From the NCBI GenBank assembly GCA_019054805.1, contig JAHQIY010000027.1:186001-250000 (forward strand): DNA of 64,000 bases, written 5' to 3'. Every line of letters begins with the position of its first letter. The first letter of the stretch is position 1. Made by a program: the position numbers and the translations under genes. Source of the stretch: Brachionus manjavacas (lineage: Eukaryota > Rotifera > Eurotatoria > Ploima > Brachionidae). Below, one piece after another: positions 5,512 through 60,044 of the stretch. The notes under the pieces are model-generated. The model was not told where the DNA came from, made no database searches, and worked only from the letters and a program-made list of their open reading frames with translations.

Positions 5512-6733
5512 TGTTTGTTTGATCTTAAAAAATTGAAAAACTCTTCGTTAAAAATCATCTCAAATAAAAGTCCCTAAATTGAGAGCCTTTATGTATTCAT
5601 AAATCGGATTTATTATTTTAATAACATTGAGAAAATTTTAAATGAATAAAACATTTCTAATTGTAAAAAATAAAAAAACTTATTACGCTTAACTATTAAT
5701 TTAGTTTAAGACTTTGTGCCTAGTTTTCATATTTTAACTTTAACTAGCAAAAGATTTTGAAAAAAATAAAAAAAAAATTTTTGGTTTAATATGAGCCATT
5801 TTAACTCAAGTTAAAACTAAACTTATACTTTCAGCTGTTAAGGTTCACATATTTGAAAGAAGTAAAAAAATTGTTCATTTTAATCTAACATAAATTCAAA
5901 GAAACAAAGATAAAAATAAGATTTAAATGCGCCATAACTCTGCCGTTAGCCGGTCCCAAGCCCAGGATGAGAAAAGAGGAGGGTGGTGGCAGCCACACAA
6001 TGTGGTCTTCTACGAGTCTGAAGAAGAGCTGTATTACGGGTACATAGATCTACGGGTCTTTGTCCTAGTCTTGTCGTATGAGGGTGCCGCTGGCTTTGAC
6101 CATCACCCAGTATAGAATCTTAACAGAGCAAGAACTTGTTTTACAGCTGACCCTCTTTGGATAGCCGTAACTTTGGAAGCGCTAAAGTTAAGGCATTCTC
6201 TCTTAAAGAGAATGTCGCTTGGTTTGTGGTTCCAAGCTAGTCTAAATAGTTGTCGAGTTCGCAGCCTTTTAGTGCTCGGATGAGTGGCGCTGTTTATGAT
6301 GAACGTCCCACGTGCTTCTTAGGGGAAGACGCCGTCATAACTATGCCGTTTGCCGGTCCCAAGCCCGGATAAAAAAAATAGGAGGGTGACATAACTTTTT
6401 GAAGAATACCATTTAGTCTAAAACTTTTTACTTAAATCCAATTTTTTATTCACAGACAGAAATTTATTTCCAAAAAAAAAATTTTTTTATCTAAAATTGA
6501 ATTTAATTTTCCAAAACCAAATTGTAAATACTAAAAAAATTTTTTTTTTCAAAATTAAATTTTATTCCCAAAAAATTATTTTAAATAAAAAATTTAAAAA
6601 CAAAAAATCTATATATTTTAAAATTTTCAATAAAATTTTTTTATAAAGATAGAATATTTTTCTTAAAGATTAAATTTTAAAATTTCAGAAAATATTTTAT
6701 GTTTTAGAAATACTTTATTATAGAAAGAAAGCT
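5512..6733 (+). repeat. Repeat R, copy 1 (GC-rich core 5929-6389)
   Basis: AT-rich leader, then a 460-bp GC-rich core that starts and ends with imperfect copies (about 52 bp) of ATAACTCTGCCGTTAGCCGG...CCCAAGCCC...GGAGGGTG. The core recurs near-identically at 12460, 30141, 42147 (-) and 50557 (-). From memory, the GTCCCAAGCCCGGAT..GGAGGGT ending resembles the 3' tail of RTE-type LINEs. Copy 3 carries LINE coding sequence just upstream, which supports a LINE 3' end. Copies 1 and 2 alone also share about 340 bp downstream, ending in GAAAGAAAGCTGGTGA. Confidence 0.85.
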
Positions 6734-12055: not shown

Positions 12056-13266
12056 TGTTTGATCTTAAAAAATTGAAAAACTCTTCGTTAAAAATCATCT
12101 CAATTAAAAATCCCTAAATTGAGAGCCTTTATGTAATCATAAATCGGATTTATTATTTTAATAACATTGAGAGAATTTTAAATGAATAAAAAATTTCTAA
12201 ATGTAAAAAATAAAAAAACTTATTACGCTTAACTATTAATTTAGTTTAAGACTTTGTGCCTAGTTTTCATATTTTAACTTTAACTAGTAAAATATTTTGA
12301 AAAAAAATTTTTTGGTTTAATATGAGGCATTTTAACTCAAGTTAAAACTAAACTTATACTTTCAGCTGTTAAGGTTCACATATTTGAAAGAAGTAAAAAA
12401 ATTGTTCATTTTAATCTAACATAAATTCAAAGAAACAAAGATAAAAATAAGATTTAAATGCGCCATAACTCTGCCGTTAGCCGGTCCCAAGCCCAGGATG
12501 AGAAAAGAGGAGGGTGGTGGCAGCCACACAATGTGGTCTTCTACGAGTCTGAAGAAGAGCTGTATTACGGGTACATAGATCTACGGGTCTTTGTCCTAGT
12601 CTTGTCGCATGAGGGTGCCGCTGGCTTTGACCATCACCCAGTATAGAATCTTAACAGAGCAAGAACTTGTTTTACAGCTGACCCTCTTTGGATAGCCGTA
12701 ACTTTGGAAGCGCTAAAGTTAAGGCATTCTCTCTTAAAGAGAATGTCGCTTGGTTTGTGGTTCCAAGCTAGTCTAAATAGTTGTCGAGTTCGCAGCCTTT
12801 TAGTGCTCGGATGAGTGGCGCTGTTTATGATGAACGTCCCACGTGCTTCTTAGGGGAAGACGCCGTCATAACTATGCCGTTTGCCGGTCCCAAGCCCGGA
12901 TGAAAAAATAGGAGGGTGACATAACTTTTTGAAGAATACCATTTAGTCTAAAACTTTTAACTTAAATCCAATTTTTTATTCACCGACAGAAATTTATTTC
13001 CAAAAAAAAAAATTTTCTTTATCTAAAATTGAATTTAATTTTCCAAAACCAAATTGTAAATACTAAAAAAATTTTTTTTTTCAAAATTAAATTTTATTTC
13101 CAAAAAATTATTTAAAGTAAAAAATTCAAAAGATAAAATCTTTATATTTTAAAATTTTAAACAAAATTTTTTTAAAAAAGATAGAATATTTTTTTTAAAG
13201 ATTAAATTTTAAAATTTCAGAAAATATTTTTTTGTTTTAGAAATACTTTATTATAGAAAGAAAGCT
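12056..13266 (+). repeat. Repeat R, copy 2 (GC-rich core 12460-12919)
   Basis: Direct copy of the 5512-6733 block, including the AT-rich leader and the downstream 340 bp, so the whole 1.2-kb unit is duplicated 6.5 kb apart. In the core I noticed one change near the middle (CGCATGAG against CGTATGAG) and a small difference near the terminal A-run, while the AT-rich flanks carry several indels. Confidence 0.85.
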
Positions 13267-23036: not shown

Positions 23037-23443
23037 TTTTTTAGCGTACAAGGATTCGTCAATTTCAACAATCTTGCCTTGTCCGCAAAGTTTTAACTTT
23101 TTTTGTCTTAAGACAACGAGCAAAGCTGTCAAATTTACAAGAAAATTTACGAAATTGTTTCTCTGTTTTAACTGTGATCAAAGTGGAGAAGAATTGAATC
23201 AACTGTCTTTGAAACAGTCAACTCTGCAGCGCAAGATTAAATGACAGCCAAAATTATACAAAGCGGCTTTTTAAAAAATTAAAAATATTGAGCTCTCAAA
23301 GATGAAATAAATGATCCACAAGAACAACATCGCAATGAAAAAATATCATTCTTGGCATTGGTAGCTATATTCTCAAAAAATTTTAAATCTTCACTTTCAA
23401 TTTCATTTTTGATATTTGATTCAAGACATTCAAAGTTTAACAT
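23037..23443 (-). pseudogene. Merlin/ISXO2-like transposase, N-terminal half, in repeat Q
   Basis: From ATG at 23443: MLNFECLESNIKNEIESEDL, then FFENIATNAKNDIFSLRCCS, a gap with stops, LTVSKTVDSILLHFD, and finally KLCGQGKIVEIDESLYAKK near 23037-23095. GKIVEIDES is the first catalytic Asp motif of Merlin/ISXO2. A donor-like GTGAG follows in the uninterrupted copy at 39.96 kb. Several stops in between, so it is a relic. The MULE insertion sits immediately after YAKK. Confidence 0.75.
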
Positions 23444-24424
23444 TTTCTATCAAGATAAGTTAATTAAAAATTTTATATTTTAATGATCAATATATAATAT
23501 AAGGTATATAATTATTACCTTTGTTATTTTCATGCAAAAAAATCAAAAATACAGAAATTAGGAATAATTTTATTTATTGATAATTAATATAATAAAAAAA
23601 GAGAGCAAAATTGTACAAATTAATGCAAAAATAAAACAAAAAAAAAACAAAAAATTTTTTTTAATACATCAAATAATGGCCATCAATTAATGGACTGACA
23701 AAAAAAATTAAATTTTACTGCCAAAAAGACTAACTCTACTGACAAAAAAAACTACATATGATGACAAATAAATTAATTGACTGATAAAATAATGATTTGA
23801 GTGACAAAAATACTTTTTGACTAATTAATTATTTTTACAACAAATTAATGATTTTGAGGTCACAATAAAGATCAAAATCTTGAACTATAGCACCAAAATC
23901 GGAAGGAAGCTCCAGACGATTATGAAAAACCGTTTTGTCCAAATCTCATCATCAAGCTAGAGTCAACTATGAGAAAACGTCACAATTTAAGTTCATTCCT
24001 TACAATCCTAGAGAACTAAATTACTAAATTGCTTTCTTTTTTTTCCTTATTCACTCCTTGTGAAGCATAGGGTCATTACTTTTGATTTCCACTCAAGTCC
24101 ACCTAAATAGCTTAATTAGAACTAAAATAATATAAAATAAAAATGAATAAAATTTTGTCAGTGCAAAATTATTAAATAGTCATCTCAATATATATATATT
24201 TGTCAGTCGTTTAGTTTTTTTGTCAGAATAATTAGTTTTTTATTGTCAGGTAAAATATATTAAATAAGTAACCGCTTTTAGGTATTTTTGTCATCTTAAA
24301 AAATTTAAATTTGTCACCCCCAAAAAATTTAAGCCAAAAATAATTAATACTTATCTTTGTTTATTTTTTGATCCAGCAGGTCCACCACGTTTTCGTTTTG
24401 CTACCGACTCACTGTTTCTTTCTT
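23328..24424. repeat. Left copy of the 1.1-kb direct duplication flanking the LINE
   Basis: Near-identical to 28349-29444. The only difference I saw is one A in a run near 23750/28765. It includes the start of the Merlin relic and an internal segment (about 23690-24340) with five TGACAAA motifs at the left and five TTTGTCA motifs at the right. That pattern looks like a MULE-like non-autonomous element, although no clean target duplication was found. Confidence 0.9.
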
Positions 24425-25298
24425 TCTTGCCCTCTGATTTCGAGAATCATAGACTTGAAACCTTCTTTAATGCTGTTCGAATTGATGGACTCAATATTGA
24501 ACACATTACCGAAGAAAAATATAAAGATAGACCCGAGAGGAAAAATGGTGTCAGAAGAGTAAGAATATCATTTCCAAAAGAAGTTGAGAACATTATTGGA
24601 AGCTTGTCAGGCCCTACAATAATGTATGGTTTAAAGTGTCTTGTGTCAATTGTTGGACAAAAGCAGAAATGCTATTTTTGTGATGAAGAAGGGCACAACA
24701 TAGCGAAATGCCCTGTCAAAGAAAAACTATGCGAAAAGTGTCATCAGAAAGGACACTTAACACAAAAATGCTCCATTGCTGAAAAGCTAAAGTCGCTTGA
24801 GAGGAAAAAGATTGACTACAATGATCTTTACATTGACCAAGAAGAAACCCAATCAATAATTGAAGCTGACCTAAAAGACAATGATGAAAATCTGATGCCA
24901 AAAACGCCTGGATATCAGCCATCAAATCTCAATGACGTAATGTCAGAAATTAGTCCTCAAGACCTCAAAACTTCAGTGTTAGAAGACAGTTTGGTAAGCC
25001 ATTTAAACGATCTTCTACCAATAAGTCAGAGACCTGTCAATGTCCTCTCAAATGATCAGAATGAGACTGAAGCTTTTTCCAAACAAAAAATCAAATCAAG
25101 AGATTTCCCGAATTTGATCCAAATGAAAAAGAGCTAACCGAAAATGAATCAAAGAAACCATTAGTTGTATTAGAAAATCAAAACGACAGTACCTTCGAGT
25201 CTGAATCAAACAGTTCAACAACTGAATGTTCAATTCAAGTAGATCAATCATCTAACAAAATTGGTCAGCAAACTGCCAGTCAAGAAAATTTAGAATGA
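24425..25298 (+). pseudogene. LINE ORF1, gag-like nucleic-acid-binding protein, 5'-truncated
   Basis: Entered without its start codon (LPSDFENHRLETFFNAV). Paired zinc knuckles lie at about residues 79-115: CYFCDEEGHNIAKC (CX2CX4HX4C) and CEKCHQKGHLTQKC. These bind the element RNA in Jockey/I-type LINEs. An acidic, Ser/Gln-rich tail follows. A one-base shift near 25100 moves the frame; after it the reading continues (FDPNEKELTENESKK) to TGA at 25296-25298. That stop overlaps the ATG of ORF2 (ATGA), a normal arrangement in such LINEs. Confidence 0.88.
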
Positions 25299-28106
25299 AC
25301 AAGAAGCTAAATAAATCAACTTTAAGAACAAAACCTCTTAATAAAACAAGGTTAGTAATTACACACTGGAATTGTCTTCATTTACCTAGTAGGGTTCATC
25401 TCTTAGACAATTTTTTAGCTCAAAAATGTCCCGACATTGTTTTGCTCAATGAATTAAAGATAGATTTGAGTGAGGCAAATATTTATCTTGATTTTCAAAA
25501 TTATCAGTTCTTAACAAAACCACGCAACAAGTACGGAGGAGGAGTAGCTATTTTAATTAAAGAAGGAATCGAATTTATACAAGATTTTTCTTACGAGGAA
25601 TTCAATTCCGAACTCCTTTGTATAAAAATGAACTTAGGAAAGAATAATGAACTGTTTGTATTTAGTCTTTATAATCCACCTAATGTGCTTCTGAACTTTG
25701 AGTTTTTTAAAACAGTAAATAAAACATGTAGAAACTACATTTTAGGTGGTGATCTAAACGCTAGAACAAAGCAAATAGGCTGCGTAGGGGAAAATGAAAA
25801 CGGGATAATATTAGAAAGAATAATCAACGAGCTAGACTTTTCAGTAATCAATGATAAGCATCCTACTTTCAATATTTTTAATAAGAATTACTTTGAAATT
25901 CTTGACCTTTTTTTAGTTTCATCTTCATTGATTGACAAAATTACCGACTTTAGTGTCTTAAATAGTCAAGACATGACTAGTGACCATTTCCCAATCGAAG
26001 CATCGATTTCTATGGGCTATCAATTAGAAAATAAATCAGCAGCTAAAAGGCTTAACTATAAGAAAGCAAACTGGCAATTATTCAGCGAGATTTTAAATTC
26101 TCAAATAGTGAATGTCACTGAAAGTTCCCTCACAATAGATCAACTAAATGATAAAATAACAGAAAAAATTATTTCTGCTTCACATAAAAGCATTCCATAT
26201 CTTTCTCAGAAAATCTACAAAACGAGTCTTCCGCCAAACATTGTTAATTTGATAAAAGAACGTAGGAAAGTAAGAAGAAATTACCAGAAAACTCGCTGTC
26301 AAAAGCTCAAGCAAAAATTTAATCAACTTACATCTGAGTTAAAGGCCTCTTTAAAAAATTCTGGAATCAAAATTGGTTTGATTTTATTGAGAAGATGGGA
26401 AAAAACCCACTGACAAGTAGACCTTTTTGGAAAAAAATAAATAAATTTAGAACAAAAAAAGGATCAAATTTAATTCCTAAATTGATTTTAAATGAAAGGG
26501 AATTTAAAACTAATGAAGAAAAGGGAAAATGCTTTGGAGAACTCTTATCGTCAATATTTAGTCCTAATTCTGATTTAATTGATACTGAGAAAGATATCGA
26601 AATTCTAAATTCTAACTCTGTTTTCTTTAGGAATTATAACCAGTCTAATTTTAATGATCCAATTTGCTTAAATGAATTAATTATGGCTTTAAAGAGATTA
26701 AAAAATGAAGCGGCATCAGGACCTGACCAAATTCATAATTTAATGTTAAAAAACTTACCTAGAAATTCATTAATAGAAATCATAGAACTTTTTAATTTAA
26801 CTCTTCGAGAAGGTAGAGTCCCGAAAGCGTGGAAAACATCTTACATTACTATGATTCAAAAAAAGGCCTCTAGTTTACACGATCCTTTAAATTATAGACC
26901 AATTAGTATAACGAGTTGTTTAGGAAAGCTACTGGAACGCATAGTATATTCAAGATTATACAATTTTTTAGAGCAAAATTCACTCCTTATCCAGGAGCAA
27001 TCTGGATTTAGGAAACACCGGCGAACAGCAGATAATCTTTTCTTCTTAATTCAAAAAATTGTGGAATCATTTAATAGAAAAAGAGTTTGCGGCCTTTTTT
27101 TGATATTTCTAAAGCCTTTGATAGGGTTTGGCATGAAGGTTTACTTTTTAAATTGATTAAAATAAATCCACCTCATTACTTGACTAACTGGATAAAATCC
27201 TTTTTAGACTCTAGGACATTTAAGGTAAATGTGAATGACCATTTGAGCGAAGAATATCAAATAACTGCAGGTGTTCCTCAAGGCTCAGTAATTAGTCCTC
27301 TTTTATTTAGTATATACATTAATGACATCCCTAAAAGAAACAAAACAAATAATGAATACTCTCTGCTTTTTGCAGATGATCTAGTTACATTCTTCATTTA
27401 TAACAAAAAAGAGAACCTAGAAAATAAGATCAATAAATACCTCAACGAATTAGAACAATGGCTTATTAAGTGGAAAATGAAGATATCGGTTGAAAAGTCG
27501 TGTTCATTAGTCTTTTCTAGGTACAAAAAAGAGAGTGATAATCTTAACTTAAAAATTTATGGAAACAGAATAGAGAGACAAAAAGAAATCAAGTTTCTTG
27601 GTATTAAATTTGATTCTAAATTAAACTTTAATATACTGGTAGATGAAATTAAAGAGCGCTGCAATAAAAGGCTAAATATTATTAAGATATTGTCAAACAA
27701 AAAATGGGGTCTTAATCAGAACACACTAGGAAATCTATATAAATCTTTAGTCGGATCAATTTTAGACTATTCTTTTCCTTGCTTGAATTCATTTTCAGAA
27801 AATAATATCAAAAAACTACAAGCAATTCAGAATACAGCAGTCAGATCTATTCTTAAGTTAAAATATGATACTCCCTCCAACATCGTACATCATGAGGCTT
27901 TTAATAAACTAAAATTACTAACAGTCTCGAATCGGCTTTTTGAATTGAGTGAGAAATATGTTGGGGCAGGACTGAGTCATTCTATTCCATTGGTTGTAAG
28001 ACTGGTGAAGGAATACAAAGAAGGTTTCGAATCAAGATATATTGACTACCCAACTCCATTGTGTAATTGCTACCTTACTATTTCTTCTTTTTTTCCTGAA
28101 ACTTGA
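25295..28106 (+). pseudogene. LINE ORF2: APE endonuclease plus reverse transcriptase, two frameshifts
   Basis: Copies the element RNA at a nicked target. The endonuclease (about 25340-26030) shows ITHWNCLHL, LLNELKID, GGGVAILI, GGDLNAR and SDHFPIEA, with the expected catalytic Asp/Asn/His positions. The reverse transcriptase (about 26690-27400) shows SGPDQIHNLMLKNLP, NYRPISITS, QSGFRKHRRT, DISKAFDRVWHEG, GVPQGSVISPLL and FADD. The C-terminal region runs to 28106 (LGNLYKSLVGSILDYSFPCL). Frame breaks at about 26350 (A-run) and about 27100 (T-run) both lie in homopolymers, so they could be sequencing errors or real decay. Without them the enzyme would read through about 940 codons. Confidence 0.92.
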
Positions 28107-28348
28107 ACTATTTAAACATGAGCCACATGTAACAATCTTTTCCAATTTTATATATTCTTAATTTTCATTTATTTAGCTTATTTACTTTTTTTTAATTCTT
28201 TTTTTTTTTTTTTTTTTTATCTTATTTTATTAACTTTAATTTTATTTTTATTTTATTTTATTTCATTTTTATTTTATTTTTTTAATTTTTAACTTATTCT
28301 GAAGGAGCTCTAGCTCGGTACAGAAAACAAATAAATAAAATAAATAAA

Positions 28349-29444
28349 CATCGCAATGAAAAAATATCATTCTTGGCATTGGTAGCTATATTCTCAAAAA
28401 ATTTTAAATCTTCACTTTCAATTTCATTTTTGATATTTGATTCAAGACATTCAAAGTTTAACATTTTCTATCAAGATAAGTTAATTAAAAATTTTATATT
28501 TTAATGATCAATATATAATATAAGGTATATAATTATTACCTTTGTTATTTTCATGCAAAAAAATCAAAAATACAGAAATTAGGAATAATTTTATTTATTG
28601 ATAATTAATATAATAAAAAAAGAGAGCAAAATTGTACAAATTAATGCAAAAATAAAACAAAAAAAAAACAAAAAATTTTTTTTAATACATCAAATAATGG
28701 CCATCAATTAATGGACTGACAAAAAAAATTAAATTTTACTGCCAAAAAGACTAACTCTACTGACAAAAAAACTACATATGATGACAAATAAATTAATTGA
28801 CTGATAAAATAATGATTTGAGTGACAAAAATACTTTTTGACTAATTAATTATTTTTACAACAAATTAATGATTTTGAGGTCACAATAAAGATCAAAATCT
28901 TGAACTATAGCACCAAAATCGGAAGGAAGCTCCAGACGATTATGAAAAACCGTTTTGTCCAAATCTCATCATCAAGCTAGAGTCAACTATGAGAAAACGT
29001 CACAATTTAAGTTCATTCCTTACAATCCTAGAGAACTAAATTACTAAATTGCTTTCTTTTTTTTCCTTATTCACTCCTTGTGAAGCATAGGGTCATTACT
29101 TTTGATTTCCACTCAAGTCCACCTAAATAGCTTAATTAGAACTAAAATAATATAAAATAAAAATGAATAAAATTTTGTCAGTGCAAAATTATTAAATAGT
29201 CATCTCAATATATATATATTTGTCAGTCGTTTAGTTTTTTTGTCAGAATAATTAGTTTTTTATTGTCAGGTAAAATATATTAAATAAGTAACCGCTTTTA
29301 GGTATTTTTGTCATCTTAAAAAATTTAAATTTGTCACCCCCAAAAAATTTAAGCCAAAAATAATTAATACTTATCTTTGTTTATTTTTTGATCCAGCAGG
29401 TCCACCACGTTTTCGTTTTGCTACCGACTCACTGTTTCTTTCTT
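28349..29444. repeat. Right copy of the 1.1-kb direct duplication flanking the LINE
   Basis: Starts CATCGCAATGAAAAAATATC directly after the LINE tail and ends ACTGTTTCTTTCTT, where it passes into unique sequence. The left copy breaks into the LINE at the same base. So the second copy holds the original right junction and the first copy holds the original left junction. Confidence 0.9.
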
Positions 29445-29505
29445 CTTCGACGCGTAATTTTTTTGTAACAGGTTGCTCATTAAATATTGGCTTGGAGTCA
29501 GACAT
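29372..29505 (-). pseudogene. Exon-like N-terminal fragment with a basic patch
   Basis: From ATG at 29505: MSDSKPIFNEQPVTKKLRVE then KRKRGGPAGSKNK. The basic KRKRGGPAGSKNK motif resembles AT-hook/nuclear targeting tails seen in many transposon proteins. The frame ends at a TAA shortly after, with no clear donor. The LINE insertion point (24424/29444) falls inside this exon, so the left copy is truncated. Confidence 0.35.
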
Positions 29506-29554
29506 TTCACTGCTGCTCAAAGCTATACTAGAGAGTGCAGTTGGCACAGCTAGA

Positions 29555-30600
29555 AAACATAGTGAAGTGGTACAGGTTACGATGGGCTGGACACGTAAGA
29601 ATGTATGGAGATAACCGATGGGCTAAGAAAGTGCTTTTCGGTGATCTCGTTGGTGGAAATACTTAAAAAATGTCTGCTACAATTGTATGTTTGGTTTTAA
29701 AGAATTGAAATTCTTTTCGTCAAAAAGCATCTGAAATAAAAGTGTCGAAATTAAGAGCCTTTTTGTAATCATTAATAGCTGTCATTTAAAAAGACAGATG
29801 GCTAGCAAGTCACTTTACTCACATTGGGAGAATTTCAAATTAAGAAAACATTTTTTAAATGTAAAAAATTTAAAAAACTTAAAAAATGTGAATTTAGTTT
29901 AAGACTTTTTATCAAAATTTCGCATTTTAATATTAAGTACCGAATTAACCAAAAGATTTCGAAATTAGATAAGAAATTATTTATGGTTAAAGATGAGGCA
30001 TTTTAACTTAAAACATTTTAATTCAAAACTAAACTTTTACATTCAGTTGTTATGGTTCACATATTTGAAAGAAGTAAAAAAATTGTTCATTTTAATCCAA
30101 CATAAATTCAAAGAAACAAAGATAAAAATAAGATTTAAATGCGCCATAACTCTGCCGTTAGCCGGTCCCAAGCCCAGGATGAGAAAAGAGGAGGGTGGTG
30201 GCAGCCACACAATGTGGTCTTCTACGAGTCTGAAGAAGAGCTGTATTACGGGTACATAGATCTACGGGTCTTTGTCCTAGTCTTGTCGTATGAGGGTGCC
30301 GCTGGCTTTGACCATCACCCAGTATAGAATCTTAACAGAGCAAGAACTTGTTTTACAGCTGACCCTCTTTGGATAGCCGTAACTTTGGAAGCGCTAAAGT
30401 TAAGGCATTCTCTCGTAAAGAGAATGTCGCTTGGTTTGTGGTTCCAAGCTAGTCTAAATAGTTGTCGAGTTCGCAGCCTTTTAGTGCTCGGATGAGTGGC
30501 GCTGTTTATGATGAACGTCCCACGTGCTTCTTAGGGGAAGACGCCGTCATAACTATGCCGTTTGCCGGTCCCAAGCCCGGATGAAAAAATAGGAGGGTGA
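29555..30600 (+). repeat. Repeat R, copy 3, with LINE coding end attached (GC-rich core 30141-30600)
   Basis: About 29555-29660 encodes YRLRWAGHVRMYGDNRWAKK, the conserved C-terminal end of many non-LTR reverse transcriptases (LRWxGHVxRM). The R leader (TGCTACAATTGTATGTTTGG, from about 29675) and the GC-rich core follow. This is the best evidence that R is the 3' part of a LINE. Copy 3 shares its leader type with copies 4 and 5 rather than with 1 and 2. Confidence 0.8.
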
Positions 30601-39612: not shown

Positions 39613-40470
39613 CTTATGAATCAGTGAAAAAATAGTATCTTTGAAAAGAAATAATATAAATACCAGAAGTCAAAGTCATCTTTTTGGCAACATGCAAATT
39701 ATTTTACATTTTCAAATTTTTAAATTTTAAATTTCTTAATATTTTTGTCCAATATCTTAGAAATTTTTTTAATACTCTTTCATAATTTAATAATTTTTGA
39801 GTTTTTTTATTTTTGAAGGAGTCAGAATAAATTAAAAAAAGTATTAACTAAAATTTTATTCTTTGTTCAAACTTGTGGCCTCATTAGATATTTCCCTTGT
39901 TTTATTTAAAGTTTTAATAATTGCAAATTTTATTTTCTAAAATAAATTCTCACCTTTGCAGTTCTTTTTTTAGCGTACAAGGATTCGTCAATTTCAACTA
40001 TCTTGCCTTGTCCGCAAAGTTTTAACTTTTTTTGTCTTAAGACAACGAGCAAAGCTGTCAAATTTACAAGAAAATTTACGAAATTGTTTCTCTGTTTTAA
40101 TTGTGATCAAAGTGGAGAAGAATTGAATCAACTGTCTTTGAAACAGTCAACTCTGCAGCGCAAGATTGAATGAAAGCCAAAATTATACAAAGCGGCTTTT
40201 TAAAAAATTAAAAATATTGAGCTCTCAAAGATGAAATAAATGATCCACAAGAACAACATCGCAATGAAAAAATATCATTCTTGGCATTGGTAACTATATT
40301 CTCAAAAAGTTTTAAATCTTCAATTTCAATTTCATTTTTGATATTTGATTCAAGACATTCAAAGTTTTAAATTTTCTATCAAGAAAATTTAATGAAAAAA
40401 TTTTATATTTTAATGATCAATATATGATATAAGGTATAATCTATGTTGTTTTCTTGCAAAAAAAATCAAA
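39613..40470 (-). repeat. Repeat Q, uninterrupted copy with Merlin transposase relic (39971-40370)
   Basis: Same order as 20660-21021 followed directly by 23037-23480, without the MULE. The minus strand shows KLCGQGKIVEIDESLYAKK and the FFENIATNAKNDI part of the Merlin N-terminus; the start ATG is lost to an indel (AAATTTTC for AACATTTTC). This copy proves that the MULE at 21-23 kb is an insertion. Confidence 0.85.
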
Positions 40471-40527
40471 AATACTGAATTTAATGCAAAAATAAAACAA
40501 AAAAAAACAAGAATTTTTTTAATACAA

Positions 40528-42146: not shown

Positions 42147-43090
42147 TCACCCTCCTATTTTTTCATCCGGGCTTGGGGCCGGCAAACGGCATAGTTATGA
42201 CGGCGTCTTCCCCTAAGAAGCACGTGGGACGTTCATCATAAACAGCGCCACTCATCCGAGCACTAAAAGGCTGCGAACTCGACAACTATTTAGACTAGCT
42301 TGGAACCACAAACCAAGCGACATTCTCTTTAAGAGAGAATGCCTTAACTTTAGCGCTTCCAAAGTTACGGCTATCCAAAGAGGGTCAGCTGTAAAACAAG
42401 CTCTTGCTCTGTTAAGATTCTATACTGGGTGATGGTCAAAGCCAGCGGCACCCTCATACGACAAGACTAGGACAAAGACCCGTAGATCTATGTACCCGTA
42501 ATACAGCTCTTCTTCAGACTCGTAGAAGACCACATTGTGTGGCTGCCACCACCCTCCTCTTTTCTCATCCTGGGCTTGGGACCGGCTAACGGCAGAGTTA
42601 TGGCGCATTTAAATCTTATTTTTATCTTTGTTTCTTTGAATTTATGTTGGATTAAAATGAACAATTTTTTTACTTCTTTCAAATATGTGAACCATAACAA
42701 CTGAATGTAAAAGTTTAGTTTTAAATTAAAATGTTTTAAGTTAAAATGCCTCATCTTTAACCATAAATAATTTCTTATCTTTTTTCGAAATCTTTTGGTT
42801 AATTCGGTACTTAATATTAAAATGCCAAATTTTGATAAAAAGTCTTAAACTAAATTCACATTTTTTAAGTTTTTTAAATTTTTTACATTTAAAAAATGTT
42901 TTCTTAATTTGAAATTCTCCCAATGTGAGTAAAGTGACTTGCTAGCCATCTGTCTTTTTAAATGACAGCTATTAATGATTACAAAAAGGCTCTCAATTTC
43001 GACACTTTTATTTCAAAGGCTTTTTGACGAAAAGTGTTTCAATTCTTTAAAACCAAACATACAATTGTAGCAGATAACTTTTAAGTATTG
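42147..43090 (-). repeat. Repeat R, copy 4 (GC-rich core 42147-42606)
   Basis: Minus-oriented copy, leader of the same type as copy 3 (ATACAATTGTAGCAG... in plus reading). Core differences noticed: GGGGCCGG for GGGACCGG and AAGCTCTTGC for AAGTTCTTGC. It lies within duplication copy A; its partner in copy B is R copy 5. Confidence 0.85.
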
Positions 43091-43789: not shown

Positions 43790-44552
43790 GCAGCATCTTA
43801 CTTCCTGGTCATTTTTATTGGCGTGGAATCATAAAATTTATCACTCGTTAAAACGAAATTGATGGATTTATTAAAACGAAACCTATAATAAATTGTGGAA
43901 TTACCTTTTGTTTTGATTGGAATTGAAAAACTGATCAGAAAATGTTTGGATTCCTTAATTGCAGTTAAAAGTGGAGAAACGAATTTATATCAAAAGCGAA
44001 ATTACCGCAATAGGAGTTCAAAACTTCTTATCTGAGAGAGCATTTTTCAGTAATTATTTTCAAATGTTTGTAGTTTCTTTTAATATTTCAATTTTTGATG
44101 GAAATATTCTATAGGACATTTTTTTTTAAAAAAATTGAAAGGGTCAGATTTAGAGTTATTTTAAAAATTCTTAATTTTATTATCATGGGTTCAAATTTGG
44201 TTTATAGATTAATTCCTAAACAAATCAGATAAAAAATTTAAATTTAAATTTTTAAATATTTACTATTGATATAAAATTTTTTCTAATATTCATTCACATT
44301 TACAATTATGCTAAATATTTTCCTTAAAACAATTATTAAACAGTTATTTAGCTATATTTTATTATTTAACAAAAGTTTAAGAATTTTTTTTAATTTAAGA
44401 ATTCATCAATTTTTAAATTATATATTTTTTTTAATTTATTTTAGATATTTACATTACTAATTAAAAACTTAAAAATTACTGCAATCGTGCTGAAAATAAG
44501 CGTTTTTTTAAAAAAACTGATTCTTTTAATTTTATTGAAGAATTAGAGAATT

Positions 44553-45689
44553 TTTTTGAGTAGCTAATTTATTTTTTTCGAGTAGCTAATTTACTTTTCA
44601 AAATAGCTAATTTATTTTTGAAAAATAGATTATAAAAGTAGCAAAAATAATTTTTTTTTGTAGCTAAAATATTCAAAAAGGAAGCAAAATAGTTTTGTCA
44701 GTAGCAAAAATAGAAAACAAAAAATCGAAAAAAAAACACAAAAATTAATTTTTATTTTTTCTTGGGCGACCTTTTGGGCGCTTTGTTGGGGCTGATTGAT
44801 TTGTTAATTCATTAATGACTGGCTGAGAATCATTTGTTTCACTATTTGAGACTAATTGTGTTGACATATTGAAGGCGTCCCGATTCAAAGGGCCAGTTGA
44901 GTTTCTCTGTAGTGCAGAAGAAGCTTTTTTGCGTCTACCTCTCTTCGAGTTTTGCTCAATATTCAAGTCCAAAGCTGGAAAGGTATCAAACTTAGACAGT
45001 TCATAGCTTATACCTATTACATGTTTGCAAATGTAATTTTTTTCAAAACTGACAAGAACATTCACTTAATTCCCATACTTGTTCATTGATTTCGATTATC
45101 TTGTAAGAATCGTTCCATGACAAATATTCTTTAAAAGTAGCCCAAGGTCATATTGAGTTCAAATAATTTCGTTTCGATTTGACCCGAAGAAAGTTCTCTT
45201 ATACATTCTTCTAGATTCTCATACGTTTTGTAAGAATCATACGGTTTAGAAGAGCCACGAAACTTTTTGGAAGGCAATTCATCGGCGTCGTTGTCATTTT
45301 GATTCGCTTCATCATATTCATCCTCTCGTCGAACAAGTGAAGTCGTTGATGATTCAGAATTTTCTTGGCTCATAATTTGTATTTACTTTAAATTTTTTGT
45401 TTCGAAGTTACTCAAAAGTCTGTTAATTTTAAACTCATAATAATTAAACATTATAATTACCATTATAAAAATTATAGAATTCTGACTTCTTATCTAATTG
45501 TCACTGATTTGATGTCAATTAAGTGTTATTTTAGATTAAAATTAATTTTTTATCAGTTGCTACTTAAAAAAATAAATCGCAAATAATTTAGCTACTGTCG
45601 AAATATTTTTTTTTTATTCAATTAGCTATTTTGAAAAGTAAATTAGCTACTCGAAAAAAATAAATTAGCTACTCAAAAAAATATATGCC
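44553..45689. mobile_element. MULE deletion derivative with TAGCTAATTTA subterminal arrays, copy A
   Basis: Bounded by ATTAGAGAATT at 44542-44552 and 45690-45700 (11-bp target duplication). Inverted ends contain GAGTAGCTAATTTA, CGAGTAGCTAATTTAC and AATAGCTAATT on the left and their exact reverse complements on the right, over 50 bp. Inside is the C-terminal end of a MULE transposase on the minus strand. Removing the insert and one duplication restores an open frame across the site, which confirms the boundaries. Confidence 0.85.
44745..45373 (-). pseudogene. MULE transposase C-terminal part with SWIM finger, copy A
   Basis: From ATG at 45373: MSQENSESSTTSLVRREDEY, acidic, then SSGQIETKLFELNMTLGYF. 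After a frameshift, ECSCQF ... NYICKHVIGISYELSKF gives the CXC..CXH SWIM zinc finger. A basic tail ends RPKGRPRKNKN, AT-hook-like. A frame break sits at an A-run between CSC and CKH, and the run length differs between copies A and B. Confidence 0.75.
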
Positions 45690-48600
45690 ATTAGAGAATT
45701 CAGAAAATATTGAAGCATTTGTTATTTCAACTTCAAACAAAATAGGAGTATTTGAAAATAATAATATTTTTCAATTAAATGTTACTACTAAAGCAATATT
45801 GAAGTATTAAAACAGATTAGGATTTCAGTTTCCGATAATTAATTTCGAAAATCAACCTGAAAATGAAATTCTTATATATGCAAATACATTTATTCAAAGG
45901 AATTGGTATTCAAAATTAAAAAAAGCAATTTTAAAATTTTTTTTTTTCTAATTAAGAATAAGTCATTTGAAACTGTTCAAAATGTAAGTAATACCTTAGT
46001 TTCATCAGTTAAAAACAAAATGGAACATATGATTGACAATGTTGATATAAAATTTGTTTTTTTCAATTTATTGTTCAATTAATTCCAAATTATAATTTAC
46101 TTAGAAATAATATAATATTATCTAAAAAAAGGGCAATTATCAACATTTTTCTACTCCCATAAATCGTTCACTTGAATTCGAAGAAATAGTTGAAAATAAA
46201 ATTGGCCTAATAGAAGATCCTTGATTGCGAGAAAAAAAAGGAGCTTCTTTACGCATTTGAAGTTAAAGAAAAAGAATGCATTTCTTTAAACGGTAAGATT
46301 GAAGACATGATGGATGATTATCAGAAATCAATTTTACTTCGTTCAGAAGAATTTGAAGCCCTCAAAAAATTTCTTTATTTTTATATCAAAAATAATAATT
46401 AAAAAAAAATGTTTTTATTAAGCGGTCTTGTGAAAAAAGAATTAAAAATTTTGAAGGACTGATCATTTTTAATTAAATTTTGAATATCGAAAATACGGGA
46501 TTAATAGTGGAGAATAGAAAAAGAAAATGCCAGTATAAAAAATGCAAAAATTCTTGTAATGTTAACAAAAAAAATCGATCGGCTAATTGAATATGAGAAA
46601 GATAATAAAACATTAAAAACAAAAATACATGAATCGGAAAGGACTAAAATTCAAATAAAAAAACACCATCAATCCACCATCAAGGTTTATAAAGATCAAA
46701 TTTACCATCTTGATAAAGAAACATTGTGAATAACAACTGAACTTAACGAGTAATTATCAGATTTGTAAAATTAAATCATCATTCTTTTAAACTTTAATTT
46801 TGAAATTTTGATAAAATCAAGAATTCAAAAGACATAATAATTGAAATGCAAAACAAAATTGCAATTTAAAAAGATTTGAAGACATAAAAAATTTTTGCAA
46901 AGAATCTGAAGTCACACCAATAAGGATTTGAAAGAATAAATCAATAAGTAATTTACCAGAAAAATTTAGAAAATGAAAAGATTTCAAATAATTTTAAAAG
47001 CAACTTTGAAAATAAATTTAATGTAGCCAATATTTAAGGAAACCAATATTTTTTTTAATTAATGAAATTAAAGAATTGACACAACATCAGAAAAAATTAT
47101 TTGAAAAAAATATTAAAGCATTTTCGAAGTTAATAATGTATCAGAAGCGTTTGGAAGAAGCTAAAGCTAATTTAAAAAATTAAAGAAGGATCATTAAGAA
47201 ATGATAAATTTTAAAATAAATTCTCATATCCTTTTGTTAGTTGTAATCTTATTTTAGATATTTTTTACTGGCTTTTAAAAACGAGGAAATATTTAATTCT
47301 GTTAATGTTCAAAATAATGATATGTTAAGATAAGAAAAGTGGCTTTCTCCAATTTTAAATAATTTTATTTAAAAAATTACTTTTGAAGGGAAACTGCATT
47401 CAATTAATTGAATGATGAGTTTGATGAGATTAAGACAATATTTTCTGCTTTAAATTAAATAAAATCAAAGGTAATTTCCGTCGAAAAGTCTCAAGATTTA
47501 TCTCATATTTTAAAAGAAAAGCAAAAATTGCTTTTAACCATTGACTACTTAAATTTAGAAAACAAGTGTAAATAAAAAAAAATTATCATTCAATGTGGTG
47601 CAAATTGTCCCCATAATCCCAAAAATTTAGTAAATTTAAGGAAAATCAATGAATCAAAGGAAAAAATAATTGTTGACTTGGAAAATAGAATTTCAGAATA
47701 TACTTAGCTAGTTAACCAAATGATCGAGAAGTAAGGCGAAATATTAAATAATTTGTAATTAATTTAGAAACATCACAATCATCTGGCAAAATGAATGATC
47801 AAGCAAATCATAAATACCAGATATTCAGAAGAATCAGACAATCAAGAGGGTGATACCAAATCAAAAACTGGAAATGATTCTATAATGACAGATGAATATG
47901 AATCAGATGAAAATCCTGCGCCCCAAAGACCAGCAAGGTTTTTGCTTTAATTTTATTTTTAATTTAAATAAATTACAAAATACTTTCAAGAAAAAAGGAA
48001 CATTTGCTGACTCTTAACGATATTCAACTCTATTATCAAAATTTAACAACCGCTCAAAATTTGAAAAGGATTCATTTTCATGACATAAACGTCGTTTTCG
48101 TTCGAATTACTAAAAATTTGGGATTTAGTCGTTTTTTTAGAATTATTAATCATCCAATGCTTACGAATTCATTCACTGGTGAAATATTCAAAGTTATTTC
48201 ACAAACAATAAAAAGATACATTTAATTGTAAAATTGTTTGATTGTGCGCAAAATTAAAAAATTTTATATTTTAACAAATTTTTAATATTAATTTTTTTGC
48301 AAAATCATTTAATTTACTTTGATGGAAAAATTAAATTTATGCCGGAAATAATCACCGAATTCAGTGTTTTTTTGGCCAATCTTTCAACTGTCTCTTCTCA
48401 TAGTAGCCTCCAACTAGGTCATTTATGTCCTGCATCTTATGAAGGTGACTGATTGCATCATCGCTGACTGAATTAATTAAAAGTACTTCAAATGTTTTTT
48501 TGGCTGTACATTTCCACGTCTTTTTGAATCTATATTTGGAGTAATTTTTTGAAATTATTTTCGTGGACCGGTTAATCAATCTTTCTTGCTAGAACTTGAA

Positions 48601-50556: not shown

Positions 50557-51069
50557 TCACCCTCCTATTTTTTCATCCGGGCTTGGGACCGGCAAACGGC
50601 ATAGTTATGACGGCGTCTTCCCCTAAGAAGCACGTGGGACGTTCATCATAAACAGCGCCACTCATCCGAGCACTAAAAGGCTGCGAACTCGACAACTATT
50701 TAGACTAGCTTGGAACCACAAACCAAGCGACATTCTCTTTAAGAGAGAATGCCTTAACTTTAGCGCTTCCAAAGTTACGGCTATCCAAAGAGGGTCAGCT
50801 GTAAAACAAGTTCTTGCTCTGTTAAGATTCTATACTGGGTGATGGTCAAAGCCAGCGGCACCCTCATACGACAAGACTAGGACAAAGACCCGTAGATCTA
50901 TGTACCCGTAATACAGCTCTTCTTCAGACTCGTAGAAGACCACATTGTGTGGCTGCCACCACCCTCCTCTTTTCTCATCCTGGGCTTGGGACCGGCTAAC
51001 GGCAGAGTTATGGCGCATTTAAATCTTATTTTTATCTTTGCTTCTTTGAATTAATGTTGGATTAAAATG
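50557..51069 (-). repeat. Repeat R, copy 5, first part (GC-rich core 50557-51016)
   Basis: Minus-oriented; its leader is split by the MULE at 51070-52524 and continues at 52525-52975. Core matches the other four copies. Confidence 0.88.
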
Positions 51070-53777: not shown

Positions 53778-54280
53778 AATTGAAAATGATTAAAGTTTGT
53801 TTAAATTTGCAATTAATTGGAGATTCTTCTAAATTTGAGGAACTTAGAAGAAATCGCTTAAATGATCAAATAAAAATTAATTATTTTAATAGAAACTAAA
53901 GTAAGAAAATAATCTGTATTTAGTTATTATTTCTAATTTGTATCATCATTTTTGTCTAACATTTTAATTGAATACATCCCCTGAATTTGCGGTTACTGAA
54001 ATAAATATATAAATAAAATACAATATTCGTCGTCTAAATTCTTAAAAAACTTTAGTTTAATATAATTTTAATTTATTATTTCATTTAAAAAAAAATATTT
54101 CAAAGAGCATTAAATTTTTTAAAATTTATTTGACCTCATTAAATTTTTCAATATAACTGTTTATTTTTAGTTAATTTTTTATTCATGGAGAACATTTTAT
54201 TTTTAAAAAGCTAATAAATAAGCTTCCTTAATAATTTGATTCTACTTCTATTTAAATAAGAGTTATCGCTTTGAAAGAAT
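53778..54280. other. AT-rich stretch before the tandem units
   Basis: No supported feature; present only in copy B. Confidence 0.4.
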
Positions 54281-56139
54281 TTATTAAAAATGCTAAAATT
54301 ATTTAATTTCAATAATACCGAGAAATCAGTCATTATAACAGCAGATTATATGATGGCTAATAATCTTACTGATCTTGAGGGTGGATTTGTCATTAAAAAA
54401 AAATTGTGGATATTTATGGTGCTTGCTCCTGTAAATGCTCCTGTGAATATTTATACAAATTGAAAAAGAAGCGATGGACATTTCAGGACGAAAGCAAAAG
54501 CCTTCTCTCATCAAAAAGCCTCAGATTTTATATCCGACAATAAAATTAAGATTTATTTCAATAATGTCGAATGGCGTATTATGCAGCAATGTATTTCAAC
54601 ATCAACACGACCGAGATTTTTGGGTTCAGCAAAACAAATGATGTTAATGAATGTTGGAATTAAATGTAGTTTTAGATTGAATACCAAAGATTTATTTACA
54701 ACATCAAAAATCTTACTTCCTGGTCATTTTTATTGGCGTGGAATCATAAAATTTATCACTCGTTAAAACGAAATTGATGGATTTATTAAAACGAAACCTA
54801 TAATAAATTGTAAAATTACCTTTTGTTTTGATTGGAATTGAAAAAACTGATCAGAAAATGTTTGGATTCCTTAATTGCAGTTAAAAGTGGAGAAACGAAT
54901 TTATTAAAAATGCTAAAATTATTTAATTTCAATAATACCGAGAAATCAGTCATTATAACAGCAGATTATATGATGGCTAATAATCTTACTGATCTTGAGG
55001 GTGGATTTGTCATTAAAAAAAAATTGTGGATATTTATGGTGCTTGCTCCTGTAAATGCTCCTGTGAATATTTATACAAATTGAAAAAGAAGCGATGGACA
55101 TTTCAGGACGAAAGCAAAAGCCTTCTCTCATCAAAAAGCCTCAGATTTTATATCCGACAATAAAATTAAGATTTATTTCAATAATGTCGAATGGCGTATT
55201 ATGCAGCAATGTATTTCAACATCAACACGACCGAGATTTTTGGGTTCAGCAAAACAAATGATGTTAATGAATGTTGGAATTAAATGTAGTTTTAGATTGA
55301 ATACCAAAGATTTATTTACAACATCAAAAATCTTACTTCCTGGTCATTTTTATTGGCGTGGAATCATAAAATTTATCACTCGTTAAAACGAAATTGATGG
55401 ATTTATTAAACGAAACCTATAATAAATTGTGGAATTACCTTTTGTTTTGATTGGAATTGAAAAAACTGATCAGAAAATGTTTGGATTCCTTAATTGCAGT
55501 TAAAAGTGGAGAAACGAATTTATTAAAAATGCTAAAATTATTTAATTTCAATAATACCGAGAAATCAGTCATTATAACAGCAGATTATATGATGGCTAAT
55601 AATCTTACTGATCTTGAGGGTGGATTTGTCATTAAAAAAAAATTGTGGATATTTATGGTGCTTGCTCCTGTAAATGCTCCTGTGAATATTTATACAAATT
55701 GAAAAAGAAGCGATGGACATTTCAGGACGAAAGCAAAAGCCTTCTCTCATCAGAAAGCCTCAGATTTTATATCCGACAATAAAATTAAGATTTATTTCAA
55801 TAATGTCGAATGGCGTATTATGCAGCAATGTATTTCAACATCAACACGACCGAGATTTTTGGGTTCAGCAAAACAAATGATGTTAATGAATGTTGGAATT
55901 AAATGTAGTTTTAGATTGAATACCAAAGATTTATTTACAACATCAAAAATCTTACTTCCTGGTCATTTTTATTGGCGTGGAATCATAAAATTTATCACTC
56001 GTTAAAACGAAATTGATGGATTTATTAAAACGAAACCTATAATAAATTGTGGAATTACCTTTTGTTTTGATTGGAATTGAAAAAACTGATCAGAAAATGT
56101 TTGGATTCCTTAATTGCAGTTAAAAGTGGAGAAACGAAT
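54281..56139. repeat. Tandem triplication of a 620-bp unit
   Basis: Units 54281-54900, 54901-55519 and 55520-56139 are almost identical (one A lost in a run in unit 2; one A/G change, CATCAAAAAGC to CATCAGAAAGC). Each unit carries two open plus-strand pieces, one around LFNFNNTEKSVIITADYMMA and one around MQQCISTSTRPRFLGSAKQM, separated by a TGA. I do not recognise them. Copy A has only the last about 190 bp of a unit. Confidence 0.9.
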
Positions 56140-56706
56140 TTATATCAAAAGCGAAATTACCGCAATAGGAGTTCAAAACTTCTTATCTGAGAGAGCATTT
56201 TTCAGTAATTATTTTCAAATGTTTGTAGTTTCTTTTAATATTTCAATTTTTGATGGAAATATTCTATAGGACATTTTTTTTTAAAAAAATTGAAAGGGTC
56301 AGATTTAGAGTTATTTTAAAAATTCTTAATTTTATTATCATGGGTTCAAATTTGGTTTATAGATTAATTCCTAAACAAATCAGATAAAAAATTTAAATTT
56401 AAATTTTTAAATATTTACTATTGATATAAAATTTTTTCTAATATTCATTCACATTTACAATTAAGCTAAATATTTTCCTTAAAACAATTATTAAACAGTT
56501 ATTTAGCTATATTTTATTATTTAACAAAAGTTTAAGAATTTTTTTTAATTTAAGAATTCATCAATTTTTAAATTATATATTTTTTTTAATTTATTTTAGA
56601 TATTTACATTACTAATTAAAAACTTAAAAATTACTGCAATCGTGCTGAAAATAAGCGTTTATTTAAAAAACTGATTCTTTTAATTTTATTGAAGAATTAG
56701 AGAATT

Positions 56707-57852
56707 TTTTTGAGTAGCTAATTTATTTTTTTCGAGTAGCTAATTTACTTTTCAAAATAGCTAATTTATTTTTGAAAAATAGATTATAAAAGTAGCAAAA
56801 ATAATTTTTTTTTGTAGCTAAAATATTCAAAAAGGAAGCAAAATAGTTTTGTCAGTAGCAAAAATAGAAAACAAAAAATCGAAAAAAAAAAAAAAAAACA
56901 CAAAAATTAATTTTTATTTTTTCTTGGGCGACCTTTTGGGCGCTTTGTTGGGGCTGATTGATTTGTTAATTCATTAATGACTGGCTGAGAATCATTTGTT
57001 TCACTATTTGAGACTAATTGTGTTGACATATTGAAGGCGTCCCGATTCAAAGGGCCAGTTGAGTTTCTCTGTAGTGCAGAAGAAGCTTTTTTGCGTCTAC
57101 CTCTCTTCGAGTTTTGCTCAATATTCAAGTCCAAAGCTGGAAAGGTATCAAACTTAGACAGTTCATAGCTTATACCTATTACATGTTTGCAAATGTAATT
57201 TTTTTTTCAAAACTGACAAGAACATTCACTTAATTCCCATACTTGTTCATTGATTTCGATTATCTTGTAAGAATCGTTCCATGACAAATATTCTTTAAAA
57301 GTAGCCCAAGGTCATATTGAGTTCAAATAATTTCGTTTCGATTTGACCCGAAGAAAGTTCTCTTATACATTCTTCTAGATTCTCATACGTTTTGTAAGAA
57401 TCATACGGTTTAGAAGAGCCACGAAACTTTTTGGAAGGCAATTCATCGGCGTCGTTGTCATTTTGATTCGCTTCATCATATTCATCCTCTCGTCGAACAA
57501 GTGAAGTCGTTGATGATTCAGAATTTTCTTGGCTCATAATTTGTATTTACTTTAAATTTTTTGTTTCGAAGTTACTCAAAAGTCTGTTAATTTTAAACTC
57601 ATAATAATTAAACATTATAATTACCATTATAAAAATTATAGAATTCTGACTTCTTATCTAATTGTCACTGATTTGATGTCAATTAAGTGTTATTTTAGAT
57701 TAAAATTAATTTTTTATCAGTTGCTACTTAAAAAAATAAATCGCAAATAATTTAGCTACTGTCGAAATATTTTTTTTTTATTCAATTAGCTATTTTGAAA
57801 AGTAAATTAGCTACTCGAAAAAAATAAATTAGCTACTCAAAAAATATATGCC
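56707..57852. mobile_element. MULE deletion derivative, copy B
   Basis: Same as 44553-45689, with the same ATTAGAGAATT duplication (56696-56706 and 57853-57863) and the same TAGCTAATTTA arrays. Differs mainly in homopolymer lengths. Confidence 0.85.
56907..57537 (-). pseudogene. MULE transposase C-terminal part with SWIM finger, copy B
   Basis: Copy of 44745-45373. The A-run between CSC and CKH is two bases longer, so the frame is broken differently. N-terminal acidic part (MSQENSESSTTSLVRREDEY) and RGRRKKASSALQRN tail unchanged. Confidence 0.72.
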
Positions 57853-60020
57853 ATTAGAGAATTCAGAAAATATTGAAGCATTTGTTATTTCAACTTCAAA
57901 CAAAATAGGAGTATTTGAAAATAATAATATTTTTCAATTAAATGTTACTACTAAAGCAATATTGAAGTATTAAAACAGATTAGGATTTCAGTTTCCGATA
58001 ATTAATTTCGAAAATCAACCTGAAAATGAAATTCTTATATATGCAAATACATTTATTCAAAGGAATTGGTATTCAAAATTAAAAAAAAGCAATTTTAAAA
58101 TTTTTTTTTTTCTAATTAAGAATAAGTCATTTGAAACTGTTCAAAATGTAAGTAATACCTTAGTTTCATCAGTTAAAAACAAAATGGAACATATGATTGA
58201 CAATGTTGATATAAAATTTGTTTTTTTCAATTTATTGTTCAATTAATTCCAAATTATAATTTACTTAGAAATAATATAATATTATCTAAAAAAAGGGCAA
58301 TTATCAACATTTTTCTACTCCCATAAATCGTTCACTTGAATTCGAAGAAATAGTTGAAAATAAAATTGGCCTAATAGAAGATCCTTGATTGCGAGAAAAA
58401 AAAGGAGCTTCTTTACGCATTTGAAGTTAAAGAAAAAGAATGCATTTCTTTAAACGGTAAGATTGAAGACATGATGGATGATTATCAGAAATCAATTTTA
58501 CTTCGTTCAGAAGAATTTGAAGCCCTCAAAAAATTTCTTTATTTTTATATCAAAAATAATCATTTAAAAAATATTTTTATTAAGCGGTCTTGTGAAAAAA
58601 GAATTAAAAATTTTGAAGGACTGATCATTTTTAATTAAATTTTGAATATCGAAAATACGGGATTAATAGTGGAGAATAGAAAAAGAAAATGCCAGTATAA
58701 AAAATGCAAAAATTCTTGTAATGTTAACAAAAAAAATCGATCGGCTAATTGAATATGAGAAAGATAATAAAACATTAAAAACAAAAATACATGAATCGGA
58801 AAGAACTAAAATTCAAATAAAAAAACACCATCAATCCACCATCAAGGTTTATAAAGATCAAATTTACCATCTTGATAAAGAAACATTGTGAATAACAACT
58901 GAACTTAACGAGTAATTATCAGATTTGTAAAATTAAATCATCATTCTTTTAAACTTTAATTTTGAAATTTTGATAAAATCAAGAATTCAAAAGACATAAT
59001 AATTGAAATGCAAAACAAAATTGCAATTTAAAAAGATTTGAGGACATAAAAAATTTTTGCAAAGAATCTGAAGTCACACCAATAAGGATTTGAAAGAATA
59101 AATCAATAAGTAATTTACCAGAAAAATTTAGAAAATGAAAAGATTTCAAATAATTTTAAAAGCAACTTTGAAAATAAATTTAATGTAGCCAATATTTAAG
59201 GAAACCAATATTTTTTTTTTAATTAATGAAATTAAAGAATTGACACAACATCAGAAAAAATTATTTGAAAAAAATATTAAAGCATTTTCGAAGTTAATAA
59301 TGTATCAGAAGCGTTTGGAAGAAGCTAAAGCTAATTTAAAAAATTAAAGAAGGATCATTAAGAAATGATAAATTTTAAAATAAATTCTCATATCCTTTTG
59401 TTAGTTGTAATCTTATTTTAGATATTTTTTACTGGCTTTTAAAAACGAGGAAATATTTAATTCTGTTAATGTTCAAAATAATGATATGTTAAGATAAGAA
59501 AAGTGGCTTTCTCCAATTTTAAATAATTTTATTTAAAAAATTACTTTTGAAGGGAAACTGCATTCAATTAATTGAATGATGAGTTTGATGAGATTAAGAC
59601 AATATTTTCTGCTTTAAATTAAATAAAATCAAAGGTAATTTCCGTCGAAAAGTCTCAAGATTTATCTCATATTTTAAAAGAAAAGCAATTGCTTTTAACC
59701 ATTGACTACTTAAATTTAGAAAACAAGTGTAAATAAAAAAAATTTATCATTCAATGTGGTGCAAATTGTCCCCATAATCCCAAAAATTTAGTAAATTTAA
59801 GGAAAATCAATGAATCAAAGGAAAAAATAATTGTTGACTTGGAAAATAGAATTTCAGAATATACTTAGCTAGTTTACTAAATGATCGAGAAGAAAGGTAA
59901 AATTATTTAAAAGCCAAATATTAAATAATTTATAATAAAATTTAGAAAAATCACAATCATCTGGCAAAATGAATGATCAAGCAAATCATAAATACCAGAT
60001 ATTCAGAAGAATCAGACAAT
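57853..60020 (+). pseudogene. Decayed coiled-coil protein gene, copy B
   Basis: Repeats the fragments of copy A (ENSENIEAFVISTSNKIGVF to VDLENRISEY) with few changes, among them an extra AAAATTATTTAAAAGCC block at about 59898. It stops matching at 60030, before the ESDENPAPQ end found only in copy A. Confidence 0.5.
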
Positions 60021-60044
60021 CAAGAGAGTGCCCAGTAAAATTTA

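Follow-up and report, generated by a model that had tools for sequence, protein, structure and literature searches.

A single 5′-truncated LINE in the window (the whole stretch of Brachionus manjavacas DNA analysed here, 64,000 nucleotides long) is bordered on each side by a directly repeated copy of a 1.1-kb segment, designated T. This structure was probably produced by one LINE insertion by target-primed reverse transcription (TPRT), with a second break 1.1 kb away and an oversized target-site duplication (TSD). The two T copies and the LINE are confirmed as a real arrangement in the sequence, as first described, and consist of the following parts (window coordinates; X and Y are the older left and right neighbours of T):

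23328-24424, plus strand: left T, 1,097 bp, contiguous with X; placed by its identity to right T and by paralogues across the X-T border

about 24425-28348, plus strand: LINE of the endonuclease-reverse transcriptase (EN-RT) kind, 5′-truncated, with an AAATA-type A-rich 3′ tail

24427-25137, plus strand: remaining part of LINE ORF1, in which two zinc-knuckle motifs of CCHC type were recognised by eye

25295-28106, plus strand: LINE ORF2 region, endonuclease followed by reverse transcriptase, in three frames (25295-26413, 26395-27156 and 27087-28106)

28349-29444, plus strand: right T, 1,096 bp, contiguous with Y; placed by its identity to left T and by paralogues across the T-Y border

23678-24336 (left T) and about 28699-29356 (right T), no strand assigned: older dispersed repeat of ~660 bp with inverted sub-terminal arms

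The limits of T given by the sequence-only reading of this DNA proved right to the base. Recomparison of the two copies also reproduced its result of no substitutions and one A-run difference, the run having eight A in left T and seven in right T. As had likewise been claimed, the LINE occupies the gap between the copies: T abuts both LINE ends, the A-rich tail is seen to pass straight into right T and the truncated 5′ end to follow directly on left T. The T/LINE border is uncertain by 2 bp, since the last two bases of the LINE tail are likewise AA and extend the match on the left. On the comparison itself, chance can be taken as excluded as the origin of a substitution-free match of 1.1 kb. 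The assembly (a Brachionus-type rotifer, 114 Mb in 61 contigs) was searched with T; among the best 40 of 962 candidates, which were scored, the only full-length matches are the two window copies, and the remaining 38 cover the ~660-bp dispersed repeat inside T together with short margins.

Both outer borders of the structure are found uninterrupted elsewhere. The X-T border is crossed by a paralogue at window positions 39964-40483 with 95% identity, which bears out the earlier claim of an independent copy of the left junction near 40.26 kb, and also by shorter matches on C3, C17, C13, C10 and C5 that continue 35-36 bp beyond the border. The T-Y border is crossed by C13:2147056-2147182 (89%, 37 bp beyond the border) and by two weaker pieces, C34:384033-384116 (81%, 16 bp beyond) and C3:4944199-4944343 (71%, 66 bp beyond). 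Two paralogues, one on C13 and one on C25, have the inner left and inner right parts of T side by side and lack both the ~660-bp repeat and the LINE; the C13 paralogue extends 37 bp into Y and that on C25 about 10 bp. Because X-T and T-Y are uninterrupted in the paralogues, X-T-Y with one T appears to be the older order, now turned into X-T-LINE-T-Y, as far as can be seen from paralogues, which are not an allele. Compared with this older arrangement, which has a single T (again in paralogues and not in an allele), the LINE has direct target repeats on both sides. At the 5′ junction, intact right T passes into Y beyond CACTGTTTCTTTCTT, and TTCTTGCCC holds the start of the LINE part; the exact overlap, judged by eye, is about 1 nt and lies within a CTT-rich stretch.

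The ~660-bp repeat inside T contains repeated GACAAA-type motifs and occurs at 38 other places with 91-96% identity (best 40 of 962 candidates scored). Because both T copies contain it, the repeat was probably in T before the LINE arrived; it is perhaps a MITE-like element. An open frame on the minus strand (29370-29560) crosses the T-Y border, and is whole on right T and broken by the LINE junction on left T. It includes the stretch RKRGGPAGSK, which we take to be AT-hook-like.

The LINE itself has the features expected of an element mobilised by TPRT, namely endonuclease and reverse transcriptase domains, an A-rich 3′ tail at the junction and a variable 5′ truncation. Both domains of ORF2 were recognised by Pfam (PF14529, PF03372 and PF00078 score above the cut-off), and a Pfam search with the ORF1 remnant gave no match. 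About 420 bp of the family 5′ end are missing from the window copy by comparison with five full-length copies; the 5′ end of a sixth copy, L065, was also seen, and other copies of the family are 5′-truncated at many different points. The window copy looks inactive, because its ORF2 is broken into three frames. With 94% identity over 73% of its length, the ORF2 endonuclease part matches a Brachionus plicatilis protein that bears the name jockey-like, taken here as a database name and not as a phylogenetic placement of the reverse transcriptase; by this match the host is a monogonont rotifer of the Brachionus type. A family search returned 4,419 candidate places, not all of which are true copies. 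At least 20 places, the window LINE included, are 98-100% identical to the query over >99% of its length, and on account of these the family is judged to be young, as well as abundant. Some copies (L033, L040, L049, L059, L079 and L091) lie directly beside or within LINEs that belong to their own or to a related family, and do so in either orientation.

For its lineage, the window LINE was compared with 29 other copies, the 5′ part being read for six copies only. The nearest over the whole compared length are C12:660439, with 3 substitutions over 3,738 aligned bases, and C18:795024, with 4 over 3,731, and these two alone have in common with the window LINE rare alleles at LINE positions 709 (2 of 6 covering copies) and 2078 (2 of 22). 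At position 2420, C12:660439 and C18:795024 share an allele that is absent from the window copy and from the other 21 covering copies. On the 3′ side of position 2400, L032, L035, L041 and L053 differ from the window LINE only at the two substitutions private to it (2985 and 3528, where the other 29 copies all agree), which is one difference fewer than for C12:660439. The pattern at 2420 fits an earlier branching of the window lineage, and would also fit if the lineage had switched somewhere between LINE positions 2078 and 2420. Since the T copies show no substitution between them and the LINE shows the two private ones, the ages of T and of the LINE are compatible with one recent event; both the duplication and the LINE are young.

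A survey of other LINEs of the family for long flanking duplications, proposed together with the sequence-only reading, covered 39 other copies, in which the 5′ and 3′ flanks were compared in both directions with a reach of about 1.45-1.55 kb. Four of the 30 3′-end loci (L040, L042, L049 and L052) were left out and L038 was taken in. As a positive control, the survey recovered the window T with a length of 1,099 bp, in which the ambiguous 2 bp are counted. One copy, on C5, was positive (667/669 bp), and 38 of the 39 had no long flanking duplication within about 1.45-1.55 kb, so that a long duplication is not the usual outcome for this family. Flanking duplications of >600 bp thus amount to two in 40 copies, the window counted. 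For 12 of the 39 copies, 110 bases of 3′ flank were compared with the whole assembly, and no second copy was found near the LINE among the best 40 of 262 candidates scored. Short TSD-like matches (≥5 bp, up to 13 bp) were recognised in 7 of 39 copies, against 6% in shuffled pairings, by a strict automatic rule that is weak and required a tail without TT, so that 7 of 39 is a lower bound; copies with no recognised short TSD could have one past the ~1.5-kb reach. The TSD at the window locus (1,097 bp) is outside this short range of the family (up to 13 bp under the same strict, weak rule).

The second locus comprises the following:

C5:1322575-1326485, minus strand: second LINE, with a TSD-like flank duplication of 667/669 bp

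C5:1326684-1328400 and C5:1334855-1336571: tandem copies L088 and L111, period about 8.17 kb

The flanks of the C5 LINE (C5:1326926-1327592, 667 bp, and C5:1321905-1322573, 669 bp) have no mismatches between them and differ by six gap bases, which fall in homopolymer runs. The right flank copy begins directly after the tail, which has a variant letter, and the left copy stops 24 bases before the full-length 5′ end of the LINE. The LINE 5′ end, the duplicated flank (T2) and the outer neighbour recur with 99% identity at C5:1334855-1336571, a distance of 8,171 bp, and the T2/LINE junction is identical in both tandem copies apart from the A-run length. The simplest order of events would be LINE insertion followed by tandem duplication. 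Because the locus is also tandemly duplicated, with a period of about 8.17 kb, C5 is the weaker second case: its geometry is TSD-like, though it may have had another origin.

In the TPRT reading, the first strand would have been nicked at the X/T border, now the joint of the A-rich tail and T, as the position of the tail suggests. The second, completing break would have fallen at the T/Y border, 1,097 bp downstream. It may have arisen at a distance on the same duplex, as a nick or a break, or on the sister chromatid, as a break that received the cDNA end; the two would give an identical sequence product and either is possible. Fill-in or copying of the intervening stretch would leave one T on each side, and the truncated 5′ end would have been attached within the CTT-rich stretch through an exact overlap of about 1 nt. 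The literal reading of the structure as a long TSD is the best supported one, through the uninterrupted outer borders in paralogues, the LINE-like junctions, the youth of both T and the LINE and the 667/669-bp case on C5, and on the same grounds the TSD of about 100 times the usual LINE size put forward in the sequence-only reading is upheld. Long TSDs in LINE cell assays are those of >20 bp (PMC2666801, in the part available); at otherwise ordinary LINE junctions, the TSD is 1,097/1,096 bp in the window and 667/669 bp on C5.

Three other explanations are less likely, because of the second locus and because each of them needs extra coincidences. The first, which we regard as improbable but the strongest of the three, is recombination between two LINEs that stood 1.1 kb apart on homologues (X-LINE-T-Y and X-T-LINE-Y), where a crossover within the LINEs would give X-T-LINE-T-Y. 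It yields the same geometry, it could draw on an abundant and young family (the at least 20 places at 98-100% identity over >99% of the query), and the allele pattern of the window LINE shifts between positions 2078 and 2420, as a crossover there would make it do. However, the change at 2420 is a single site, equally well explained by branching before that mutation, and the T copies are without substitution although they would be alleles of two chromosomes. Two polymorphic insertions in the same orientation 1.1 kb apart would be required, and a similar pair again, 0.67 kb apart, at C5.

An assembly artefact, in which two haplotypes or two LINE loci were merged through the LINE, is very unlikely. 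A near-identical multi-copy LINE can mislead an assembler, and the one-site change of allele pattern inside the LINE might be read in this way; yet both junctions are base-exact, a misjoin would need two LINE alleles or loci each abutting T, and the same architecture recurs on C5. Least likely of all, with hardly any probability left to it, is a tandem duplication of T into whose junction the LINE inserted afterwards: tandem duplications are known nearby (window 54273-56159) and at C5, but the insertion would have had to strike the junction within 1-2 bp and make no TSD of its own, the absence of substitutions between the T copies would make the duplication as young as the LINE, and no LINE-free tandem T is present among the scored matches (best 40 of 962 candidates).

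LINE TSDs of this size have precedents in cell culture. For ZfL2-2 in wild-type chicken DT40 cells, the available part of PMC2666801 gives changes of ≤20 bp in 24 of 25 insertions and a TSD of 1,228 bp in the remaining one. The rotifer case resembles it in being a single LINE insertion with a TSD of one size class, which is rare in wild-type cells, and differs in that ZfL2-2 was an engineered element in cultured cells, whereas the rotifer LINE is a naturally occurring copy, seen in the genome assembly of an animal. LINE TSD length at large is not fixed, according to the same text (PMC2666801), and for this reason a window TSD beyond the short range of its family does not exclude the element from the LINE/TPRT class.

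For L1 in NER-deficient human cells, the accessible portion of PMC5223499 gives TSDs of >100 bp in 4 of 7, 21 of 23 and 22 of 28 insertions, with >1 kb in 18 of 47 of the insertions with TSDs of >100 bp; in HeLa cells such large L1 TSDs never exceeded 10% of events. Its authors suggest that L1 insertion may be completed by a nick lying more distally (PMC5223499). The likeness is in the TSDs, from >100 bp to several kb, but a large TSD is the common outcome in NER-deficient cells and is seen in 2 of 40 surveyed copies in the rotifer LINE family. In one cancer, a single L1 was found at the joint of a 22.6-Mb somatic tandem duplication, for which the model is cDNA invading a downstream sister-chromatid break (PMC7058536, in part). 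There too one L1 stands at the junction of a direct duplication; that duplication is somatic and measures 22.6 Mb, against 1.1 kb for rotifer T. Kilobase and larger duplications around one LINE are therefore, on the partial texts at hand, a known and rare outcome. Since LINE TSDs of >1 kb have been recorded before (PMC2666801 and PMC5223499, both in part), the window case is rare rather than new in kind, a natural example of a known rare type.

Among rotifer elements, comparison may be made with R9. This element is reportedly site-specific, with a set TSD length of 126 bp. In the LINE family described here, by contrast, the long TSDs are not of one length from copy to copy, and they are missing from 38 of the 39 copies surveyed besides the window LINE. 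R9 belongs to bdelloid rotifer rDNA and is a retrotransposable element whose TSD is termed "exceptionally long" in a title cited in PMC2861651. The available parts of PMC4245944 and PMC3846280 added no TSD of kilobase size. A literature search for "kb target site duplication" with retrotransposon returned no earlier natural kilobase TSD, the precedents being from cell culture and cancer, and titles and abstract openings in the literature searched reported none in rotifers or Brachionus.

The completion of the second half of LINE integration is still poorly understood (PMC6895275, in the part available). The window case is useful in this respect because the long TSD seems to recur within one young family: where a young and abundant LINE has left kilobase TSDs naturally in a small animal genome, one can measure how often distant second breaks occur in a germ line instead of in cell culture. 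Such TSDs also show a direct route by which LINEs could create local duplications. We suggest, tentatively and while leaning against it, that in the germ line a measurable share of this young family (two of the 40 surveyed) was completed at second breaks 0.7-1.1 kb away. If so, the second strand would be cut by a host or chance nick and not by the element itself. LINEs would then continually generate kilobase duplications that have a LINE at the joint, and these in turn may give rise to larger ones, for instance that of 8.17 kb on C5.

Other repeats are present in the window. A direct repeat of 4 kb (43795-47852 and 55949-60030) is 98.7% identical between its copies, and the start of the second copy lies in a tandem array of about three 0.62-kb units (54273-56159). 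Five matches to the Rfam RNA family RAGATH-11, with scores of 108-110 bits, were found at 6197-6316, 12728-12847 and 30409-30528 on the plus strand and at 42219-42338 and 50629-50748 on the minus strand. Each of them lies within one repeat family, roughly 0.5-1.2 kb long, that is common to those parts of the window.
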